This document shows, one piece after another, positions 41,000 to 43,367 of a stretch of DNA of 64,000 nt. The notes under the pieces were generated by a model. That model had not been told where the DNA came from. It made no database searches and worked only from the letters and a program-made list of their open reading frames with translations. The position numbers and the translations under genes are program-made. Numbering within the stretch: the first letter of the stretch is position 1; every line of letters starts with the position of its first letter. This stretch comes from Persephonella sp. (lineage in GTDB: Bacteria > Aquificota > Aquificia > Aquificales > Hydrogenothermaceae), in the NCBI RefSeq assembly GCF_027023985.1, contig NZ_JALVTW010000010.1, forward strand, positions 62,001-126,000, in the 5' to 3' direction.

Positions 41000-41497
41000 T
41001 TGAAAAAAATATTTCTTGCTTTAGGTTCAAATATCGGCAATAGGCAGGAAAATATAAATCAGGCAATAAGGTTTTTATCTAAAGAAATTACTGATATAAA
41101 ACGAGCACCAATCTATGAATCAAAGGCTGTAGGCTATGAAGACCAGCCCGATTTTTTAAATACAGTTATATCTGGATATACAGATTTATCCCCTGAAGAG
41201 TTATTGAATTTCGTTAAAAAAGTTGAAAAACAGACAGGGAGAATAAAAAGATTTAGATGGGGTCCAAGAGAGATTGATATAGATATCATTTTTTATGGGA
41301 ATTTAGTTATAGAAAAAGATAATCTTATAATCCCCCATCCTCGCATTCAGGAACGGGATTTTGTCTTAAAACCGCTTTGCGATTTGGAACCTGAGTTTAT
41401 ACATCCTGTTTTGAAAAAAACCGTTCTGGAACTTTTAAACAATCTAAAAGAAAAATCAATAATCAGGGAAACCTCAAAAACTGGGAATAAATGCTAA
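41000..41497 (+). CDS. folK: 6-hydroxymethyl-7,8-dihydropterin pyrophosphokinase
   Basis: 165 residues. FALGSNIGNR-type start (LALGSNIGNRQENI), RFRWGPREIDIDIIFYG and IIPHPRIQERDFVLKPL are the standard FolK motifs. The enzyme pyrophosphorylates the pterin with ATP in folate synthesis. AAGGTGG precedes a TTG start at 41000. No folP or folB was recognised nearby. The stop shares four bases (CTAA) with the convergent VapC stop. Confidence 0.95.
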   Translation: MKKIFLALGSNIGNRQENINQAIRFLSKEITDIKRAPIYESKAVGYEDQPDFLNTVISGYTDLSPEELLNFVKKVEKQTGRIKRFRWGPREIDIDIIFYGNLVIEKDNLIIPHPRIQERDFVLKPLCDLEPEFIHPVLKKTVLELLNNLKEKSIIRETSKTGNKC

Positions 41498-41892
41498 TGA
41501 TTTTTTAGTAATTTTTTAGAAAATTCTGATAAAAGTTCAACTTCAGGATAATGTTTAACATTTCTTGTTACTATTTTTAGATTTTTTTCTTTTGCAGTTG
41601 CCATTATTAAGCAATCAATATTAGAAAGTGTAATACCTTTTTTTCTGTAATTTCTATAAAACTCAGCTCCAGTTTTTATAATGTTTTCATCTAAATTTAT
41701 TATTTCTATTAACTTTACAAAATCCTGAATTATCTTTTGTTGTCTTACTGCAAAAGCTCCTTTTAATAGCTCATAGTGAGTTAATATACTTATATAGCAA
41801 TCTTCATTTAGAATTTCTGAGAAAAGATTTACTGCATAATCCTTATTCTTTAGAAAATCTATGCAAACATCAGTATCTATTATGTATCCCAT
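41494..41892 (-). CDS. VapC-type PIN-domain toxin
   Basis: 132 residues. GYIIDTDVCIDFLKN (first Asp), ISILTHYELLKGAF (conserved Glu), TLSNIDCLIMATAKEKNLKIVT (Asp) and TRNVKHY give the PIN acidic quartet in proper order. VapC toxins cut specific RNAs, often tRNA or rRNA loops. It starts 13 bp inside the antitoxin gene. Confidence 0.9.
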   Translation of the reverse strand: MGYIIDTDVCIDFLKNKDYAVNLFSEILNEDCYISILTHYELLKGAFAVRQQKIIQDFVKLIEIINLDENIIKTGAEFYRNYRKKGITLSNIDCLIMATAKEKNLKIVTRNVKHYPEVELLSEFSKKLLKNH

Positions 41893-42134
41893 TCTTTCTC
41901 CCTTTCCTTTTGAGTTCTAATATCCTCTTTCCTTGCTTTATTTTCATATTCCAAACCATCTTTTATTTCCCAATCTTTTAGACTTCCTGCCATTGACAAA
42001 ATTTTTTCTTTTTTCTTCTTCTTTAAATAATCTTCAAGGGCTTCTTTTACTATATGACTGAAATTTTCTGAAAATTCTCTTGCTTCTTTATAAATATTCT
42101 CAGGAATAGAAATAGTTTTTTTTACTACACCCAT
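41880..42134 (-). CDS. Ribbon-helix-helix-type VapB antitoxin
   Basis: 84 residues starting MGVVKKTISIPENIYKEARE, the RHH DNA-binding strand-helix typical of antitoxins, with a C-terminal acidic/basic tail that would wrap the toxin. The ATG at 42134 follows AAGGAGGTGA by seven bases; an earlier GTG falls within that site. The palindrome just upstream is a likely autoregulatory operator. The operon borders the DnaA-box cluster. Confidence 0.85.
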   Translation of the reverse strand: MGVVKKTISIPENIYKEAREFSENFSHIVKEALEDYLKKKKKEKILSMAGSLKDWEIKDGLEYENKARKEDIRTQKEREKEWDT

Positions 42135-42171
42135 TATTATCACCTCCTTATTCTAAAGTAAGAATATTTTA

Positions 42172-42209: not shown

Positions 42210-42612
42210 TTATCCACAGGTTATCCACAAGGCGAACATTATGTAAGTGATTGATAAATATATGAAATTAAAAAATTATCCACAGGGGTTGTGGATAACT
42301 CAGAAAAAATTGTGGATAACTGGGCAAAAGTTGTGGATAACTTAGCCTTAAATTGTGGATAACTTCAACTTATCCACAAAGTTATCCACAGGGTTAAGTA
42401 GTTGAAAAACAAGAAAAGTTAGTTGATATTAACCTGTAAGTTATTGTAATAAAAAGATTTTTCAAAAATTGAGTTATCCACAGGTTATCCACAAGTTATC
42501 CACATTTTTGAACTACTATAAGTTATTGAAAAATATATAAAAAATTAAGTTATCCACATATCCACAGGCCATTATTATTCTTATTATTATTTATATTTTT
42601 AAAAACTAAAAA
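42210..42612. other. oriC: Candidate replication origin (oriC): DnaA-box cluster with DnaA-trio-like run
   Basis: No gene lies here. Thirteen perfect TTATCCACA boxes were counted: forward at 42210, 42221, 42276, 42370, 42382, 42474, 42485, 42496 and 42550; reverse at 42290, 42311, 42332 and 42354 (start positions). A near-match ATATCCACA is at 42558. Reverse boxes are 21-22 bp apart and several forward boxes 11-12 bp apart, so they face the same side of the helix. After the last box come GGCC, an ATT/TTA trinucleotide run (42571-42593) resembling DnaA-trios, and an AT-rich stretch. That order matches a bacterial basal unwinding system. dnaA itself is not adjacent. The alternative is a DnaA-titrating locus. 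Confidence 0.85.
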
Positions 42613-43314
42613 TTAAAAAGAAAAGAATCTATCTAAAAACCGGTAAAGATGATTTTCAAGCTGGATAAATTTTTTGTAATCGGATATCATCTCTTCAGGT
42701 TTCTGGATATATTTTCCTTCCTGTTTAAGCTCAGTTTCTCCTTCTTTAATCCAGTTTCTAACACTTTCTAAGTCAACTTCAAAGTGGAACTGAAGGGCAA
42801 CTACTTTTCCATCTTCCGTTTCAAAAGCCTGATTAGGACATCCTTCACTGTAAAATGTGTGAATGGTTCCTGCCGGAATATCAAATGTATCTCCATGCCA
42901 ATGGAAAACTTCTATTTCCTGTGGAAAGTCGTAAAAATATTTGGATTGCTCTGCTTTATCTGTTTTAAAAACCGGAAACCAGCCAATCTCTTTATCACCA
43001 CATTTATAAATTTTGCTTCCCATTACTTCAGCAATTAATTGAGCTCCAAGACATACTCCCAGAACTTTTTTACCAAGTTTTATTGCATTTTCTATAAAAA
43101 CTTTTTCTTTTTTTAGAAATGGATATTTATCTTCATCATAAACCCCCATAGGACCACCCATTATTACGAGGACATCAAATGATGAAAAGTCCGGAAATGG
43201 TTCATTTTTATATAAATGTGTTCCTTTTATTTGAGTTATATCCCTGTCTTTTGCCCATCTGAATATATTTGCAGGGGTTTCGTAAGGAACATGTTGAAAA
43301 TAATGTATTCTCAT
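42613..43314 (-). CDS. Class I glutamine amidotransferase-like protein
   Basis: 233 residues. IMGGPMGVYDE, the nucleophile elbow VLGVCLGAQLIAEVMG (Cys) and LQFHFEVDLESV (His and Glu) form the GATase triad. It resembles free-standing GMP-synthase-like amidotransferases (YfeJ-type) of unknown acceptor. The start at the MRIHYF ATG (43314) is supported by GGAGGA five bases upstream. It lies beside the DnaA-box cluster, transcribed towards it. Confidence 0.88.
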   Translation of the reverse strand: MRIHYFQHVPYETPANIFRWAKDRDITQIKGTHLYKNEPFPDFSSFDVLVIMGGPMGVYDEDKYPFLKKEKVFIENAIKLGKKVLGVCLGAQLIAEVMGSKIYKCGDKEIGWFPVFKTDKAEQSKYFYDFPQEIEVFHWHGDTFDIPAGTIHTFYSEGCPNQAFETEDGKVVALQFHFEVDLESVRNWIKEGETELKQEGKYIQKPEEMISDYKKFIQLENHLYRFLDRFFSF

Positions 43315-43367
43315 TATTTCCTCCAAATTTAGTTATATCATTTATTTCGTAACAGGAAACTTTTTCC

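Follow-up and report, generated by a model that had tools for sequence, protein, structure and literature searches.

A probable chromosomal replication origin in Persephonella with DnaA-trios and predicted IHF-type sites

A single cluster of DnaA boxes in a genome of Persephonella sp. (Hydrogenothermaceae, Aquificota), together with the AT-rich DNA that adjoins it, very probably constitutes the chromosomal oriC of this bacterium, an origin that is ordinary in kind. The region, at 42210–42630 of the 64,000-nucleotide stretch analysed here (hereafter the window), was interpreted as oriC in the initial annotation, and this interpretation is now supported by the uniqueness of the cluster, the conservation of its boxes, the nucleotide skew of a close relative, a tract of DnaA-trios and low helix stability. 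The origin of a thermophilic genus of Aquificota can thus be placed by evidence at the DNA level, where dnaA, dnaN and parB fail as landmarks. We found no paper in the open-access literature that names the oriC of Persephonella marina, and the origin may already stand in DoriC as a prediction. The spacers between the boxes also contain putative IHF sites, of which the initial annotation makes no mention. If these are real, both textbook designs of origin opening, the IHF-bent half-origin and the DnaA-trio unit, would be united in one origin; their spacing, similar to that of Escherichia coli, makes a shared design and the age of bending-assisted opening testable in a distant phylum.

A unique and conserved cluster of DnaA boxes

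Between 42210 and 42566 we identified 13 perfect TTATCCACA boxes and one near-box with a single mismatch (ATATCCACA, start 42558), in agreement with the count previously given for a segment of about 350 bp. The layout (Table 1) is also as first described, with four reverse boxes recurring every 21–22 bp and forward boxes in 11–12-bp tandems, except that the final pair steps by 8 bp. The number of perfect boxes never exceeded one per 360 bp in 20 simulated 64-kb sequences, and chance is therefore excluded as the source of the cluster. As befits an oriC, the cluster sits in an intergenic gap. It is the only TTATCCACA cluster in the genome (1.90 Mb, 38 contigs), in which the remaining 36 perfect boxes are scattered at background level (32 matches for a reversed-pattern control). 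Helical phasing was rejected as a rare feature, 21–22-bp triple arrays being found in many phyla. A search for an RNA family at the site of the cluster found none.

Table 1. Features of the probable origin region (positions in the window)
Feature	Position	Strand	Remarks
Forward DnaA-box tandem, starts 42210 and 42221, 11-bp step	42210–42229	+	Invariant in four Persephonella
IHF-type site, exact to TAANNNNTTGATW (TAAGTGATTGATA)	42244–42256	+	23 bp after start of box 42221, 32 bp before box 42276
Single forward DnaA box	42276–42284	+	11-bp tandem in relatives, one copy absent in the window
Four reverse DnaA boxes, starts 42290, 42311, 42332, 42354	42290–42362	-	Phased at 21, 21 and 22 bp
Forward DnaA-box tandem, starts 42370 and 42382, 12-bp step	42370–42390	+	
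IHF-type site, one mismatch (TAAGTAGTTGAAA)	42395–42407	+	13 bp after start of box 42382
Forward triple DnaA-box tandem, starts 42474, 42485, 42496, 11-bp steps	42474–42504	+	
IHF-type site, one mismatch (TAAGTTATTGAAA)	42519–42531	+	23 bp after start of box 42496, 31 bp before box 42550
Terminal overlapping box pair TTATCCACATATCCACA, starts 42550 (perfect) and 42558 (one mismatch)	42550–42566	+	Adjoins the unwinding site
Short GC spacer, then DnaA-trio tract	42567–42595	-	Conserved in the family (first trio CTA); same polarity in other phyla
Predicted unwinding element	42571–42630		Second least stable 60-bp peak of the 64-kb window

In an alignment of the window with three other Persephonella genomes (G005, G006 and G013), none of the 125 box positions varies, compared with 49 of 232 spacer positions (Fisher p = 1.5e-10). 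The close relatives have 14 perfect boxes and one near-box, i.e. one box more than the window, where an 11-bp gap in the alignment corresponds to the missing copy. Named records with the same array belong to Persephonella. Tandem clusters were detected in most genera of Hydrogenothermaceae (family f1), essentially one per genome, with several incomplete genomes lacking one, and in parts of the order's two remaining families. The loci that we read share a recurrent order: a forward tandem comes first, followed by the reverse phased array, a second forward tandem, the triple tandem, a 54-bp gap and the terminal box. This layout varies in genera g5 and g12, and the number of boxes varies by genus; in the g5 genomes the forward tandems are longer and exact IHF-type sites are few. 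Within Hydrogenothermaceae, arrays are found repeatedly whose steps are 21 bp or a mixture of 11 and 21 bp.

The DnaA protein of this genome matches the DnaA structures of Bacillus subtilis and Aquifex aeolicus, and its domain IV carries the motif KKDHTTV, the canonical form, in keeping with the use of a canonical box. Within the Aquificaceae (f2), genera g7, g9, g10, g11, g18 and g22 have no tandem cluster of TTATCCACA or TTTTCCACA, chance-like single pairs aside, and the DnaA proteins of g7 and g9 keep a DHT-type motif; the origins of the Aquificaceae genera without a cluster may rely on a different box. In genus g21, the box used is TTTTCCACA.

The cluster occupies the interval between a VapBC-like pair (PIN toxin, 41494–41892; antitoxin-like ORF, 41880–42143) and a glutamine amidotransferase gene (42613–43326), with folK and an L,D-transpeptidase gene of the ykuD type further to the left. 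The suggestion that related genomes would show the cluster beside both vapBC and the amidotransferase gene was only partly confirmed: the latter lies next to the cluster in three relatives, of which a single one (G006) also has vapBC there. The pair is absent from this position in G005, and the flank of G013 is that of G005. The constant neighbours within the genus (g1) are folK and ykuD. In genera g2–g6 and g12 the cluster is kept beside unrelated genes, which indicates that the element is maintained for itself and not for a nearby gene; for the same reason, the partly shared neighbourhood does not weaken the oriC reading. As an origin marker, the vapBC/amidotransferase context was rejected beyond a few close relatives, and so was the amidotransferase gene in other genera, where its flanks contain no box cluster.

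Unwinding unit and chromosomal position

An AT-rich element of low stability adjoins the box cluster, as expected for an oriC, and GC content over 42567–42620 is only 13%. The tract next to the terminal pair reads GG CCA TTA TTA TTC TTA TTA TTA TTT ATA on the top strand and 3'-GGT-AAT-AAT-AAG-AAT-AAT-AAT-5' on the bottom strand. A basal unwinding system is characterized by a DnaA box at most 16 bp from three or more trios with a central A (PMC8287927), and the window has such an arrangement, with a perfect box at 42550–42558 and bottom-strand trios at 42572–42592. The trio nearest the box is preferably 3'-GAT-5', which is a reported preference and no requirement (PMC8287927). It is CCA in the window (3'-GGT-5' on the bottom strand), which we count against the oriC reading; relatives read GGCT or GCCT, giving CTA, and most have 3'-GAT-5'. 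In nearly all members of the family, only a few bases separate the terminal box from CTATTATTATT or a similar sequence downstream of it, so that the bottom strand runs 3'-GAT-AAT-AAT..., the DnaA-trio pattern. The succession of box, GC, trios and AT-rich DNA that had been likened to a basal unwinding element is therefore borne out, its polarity included. The GGCC noted after the boxes is present in the window, but had to be rejected as a conserved GC element in view of the sequences of the relatives. A box followed by five trios was found in 26 of 148 fetched loci, always in the polarity of the window and never in an alternative one; these loci include Poribacteria, Clostridia, Meiothermus and Candidatus Binatia.

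The genome of the window is a draft in 38 contigs, and skew was measured in the relative G006, whose contig of 1,910,985 bases was read whole. The sole box cluster of G006 lies at 1,611,551–1,611,910. After correction of the 4-fold degenerate sites for codon family and transcription, their skew is lowest at 1,614,000 (T-A and keto), 2.3 kb from the cluster, an agreement that is partly post hoc because several skew measures were tried; its amplitude is significant by block permutation (p = 0.001 for keto, 0.0035 for T-A). Other minima were found at 1,598,380 for intergenic GC (13 kb from the cluster), 1,574,915 for gene orientation (37 kb before it), 1,654,428 for raw GC skew (43 kb from it) and 1,720,000 for the corrected 4-fold G-C skew (about 108–109 kb after it). 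The skew minimum, a test proposed in the initial annotation, is at or near the cluster in G006. The skew is noisy, with a bootstrap interval of the minimum of about -255 to +126 kb, and would therefore not name the site by itself, but it agrees with the cluster, and the strand composition of G006 switches there within the error of the method. The scattered single boxes of G006 also switch their strand preference at the cluster (p = 0.023). A second genome, G015, has its sampled keto minimum at 6.4 kb and its cluster at 6.7 kb, which we regard as supporting evidence only, because sampling covered just the initial 1.27 Mb, at 62%.

Further observations were counted against an oriC: the local skew within the 64-kb window is weak, the dnaA, dnaN and ParB genes of G006 lie hundreds of kb from the cluster, and no clear parS adjoins it. 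A second box cluster near dnaA or dnaN, the finding that would favour an origin elsewhere, was looked for and none was found, as the oriC reading anticipates. The gene for the chromosomal ParB is remote from the origin in both relatives (G006:C1:613160, G015:C2:768662), unlike the usual parABS position; in G006 it is about half a chromosome from the cluster. A search for parS near the cluster gave no match with fewer than two mismatches in G006, and matches with two or three mismatches are spread over the whole chromosome.

IHF-type sites and a possible opening mechanism

The spacers between the boxes hold TAAGTNNTTGATW, which fits the IHF consensus TAAnnnnTTGATW (PMC10380432). Site 42519 of the window is exact to this consensus in G005 and G006. 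With C or T allowed as first base, 28 exact sites were counted in 16 clusters of the family (5.66 kb), against 0.54 expected from the genome rate of G006, and 23 of the 28 point in the same direction; these counts are not independent, the 16 clusters being related, but the spacer sequence that surrounds the sites changes from one genus to another. When one mismatch is tolerated, 38 of the 62 box-to-box gaps contain a site, compared with an average of 4 and never more than 11 in 500 shuffles. In 33 of these 38 cases, the distance from a box to the start of the site that follows it is precisely 13 or 23 bp, two values about one helical turn apart, the choice between them varying by genus. Between boxes 42382 and 42474, a gap of 92 bp, there is a further weak repeat (TAAGTTATTGTAA; 42437–42449) with two mismatches to the consensus.

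Exact sites with spacings of 22–24 and 31–32 bp also occur in one member of Competibacteraceae, another proteobacterium, one member of Cytophagales and an unassigned bacterium. Units composed of a box, an IHF-type site and a box, spaced at 22–23 and 31–32 bp, were observed outside Aquificota at four loci (L210, L241, L266 and L293). At another locus, from a Cytophagales MAG (L246), four near-identical TGTTGATAACTTTTTT elements each follow a reverse box tandem, a pattern suggestive of a repeated origin or of a titration array. New to us is the occurrence, in one origin of Aquificota, of an unwinding unit with DnaA-trios together with repeated putative IHF sites at precise distances and in E. 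coli geometry; our search of the open-access literature found no work on IHF at an Aquificota oriC, the single paper that mentions IHF, Aquificota and oriC being devoted to another topic.

These features suggest how replication could start in this region. DnaA would occupy the forward tandems as well as the phased array of reverse boxes, and a protein of the IHF or HU type could bend the helix at as many as three places, each located 13 or 23 bp beyond a box tandem. Bending between the triple tandem and the terminal pair would join the two groups of DnaA molecules bound there. A DnaA filament starting from the terminal pair may then extend onto the bottom-strand trios (42569–42592) and open the AT-rich element for helicase loading. 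The origin seems to combine an unwinding unit of the B. subtilis type with a bending geometry of the E. coli type, judging from its motifs and their spacing. One can even imagine that the box/IHF-type/box unit with its quantised spacing (12–13 or 22–24 bp, then 31–32 or 41–42 bp) is a conserved origin module of Aquificota and Proteobacteria, perhaps an ancestral one, a possibility about which we are rather more doubtful than convinced. If true, sequence-directed bending of oriC would be older than the IHF of the E. coli type, working here with an unwinding unit of the B. subtilis type.

A cluster of many boxes with IHF-type sites in an intergenic gap could also be a site of DnaA titration or inactivation, comparable to datA of E. 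coli, which consists of DnaA boxes and one IHF site (PMC10380432), or a promoter regulated by DnaA, the true origin being located elsewhere. We consider such a role very unlikely, since no other box cluster is available to serve as the origin, and since a trio tract and a low-stability element are present at the end of the cluster, with the skew switch nearby. Moreover, the persistence of the cluster beside different genes in other genera means that it is not tied to one promoter. The VapBC-like toxin–antitoxin pair that adjoins the cluster in the window and in G006 might instead evoke the origin of an integrated plasmid or another mobile element rather than that of the chromosome. This is hardly credible given that the pair is missing beside the cluster in G005, whose flank G013 shares, and that folK and ykuD are the genes constantly found near it in the genus. 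The cluster of G006 furthermore lies in a 1.91-Mb contig, near the skew minimum, and the family as a whole has about one such element per genome.

It is also conceivable that the region is indeed oriC but that its IHF-type sites are fortuitous or unbound, unwinding depending on DnaA boxes and trios only. IHF has been described as confined to a small number of phyla, Proteobacteria among them (PMC10380432), and two of the three sites in the window are mismatched, which we also count against the oriC reading. The two Persephonella genomes searched have four to five genes of the HU/IHF family, which we count for the main reading; the four proteins of G006 score best to IHF-alpha/beta, but all below the curated IHF cut-offs, which we count against it. 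Idle sites nevertheless appear unlikely to us, although the chance of it is appreciable, in the face of the excess of exact sites over expectation, of the strict placement of nearly all near-exact sites relative to a box and of an arrangement that is that of R5M-IBS1-R1 in E. coli.

Comparison with known origins

We fetched and measured the left region of the E. coli oriC (DUE-R1-IBS1-R5M), in which R5M lies at -55 and IBS1 at -31 relative to R1 at 0. The corresponding elements of the window, in the same orientation, are a box at -54, an IHF-like site at -31 and a box at 0, i.e. spacings of 23 + 31 bp against 24 + 31 bp. The IHF-type site between the box proximal to the unwinding element and the next box is almost at the E. 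coli spacing, with one mismatch in the window; IBS1 of E. coli has two mismatches to the consensus used here. In both origins, the ACA end of the box faces the unwinding element. The window differs from E. coli in having three box/IHF-type/box units instead of one, perfect boxes where those of E. coli are mostly weak, a triple forward tandem and a trio tract.

In this last feature, it resembles the basal unwinding system of the B. subtilis type (PMC8287927, PMC6669920), with which it shares a perfect box, a second weaker box, a short GC spacer and repeated trios with a central A on the strand that runs 3'-5' away from the box. Unlike in that system, the last two boxes of the window overlap by virtue of their 8-bp step, as they also do in Candidatus Binatia (L270/L282), the trios are AAT and not GAT, with GGT as the first one, and the oriC is not beside dnaA. 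The oriC of Thermotoga maritima, according to the available part of its description (PMC10316083), is likewise an origin of a thermophile with trinucleotide repeats, in which helical phasing of the boxes is needed and which HU has been proposed to bend. Its minimal origin has five boxes of a different consensus and TAG repeats, and that part of the description mentions no IHF-type sites. Counterparts of the origin described here are the other clusters of Hydrogenothermaceae, most of which have a similar layout, a trio tract and IHF-type sites.
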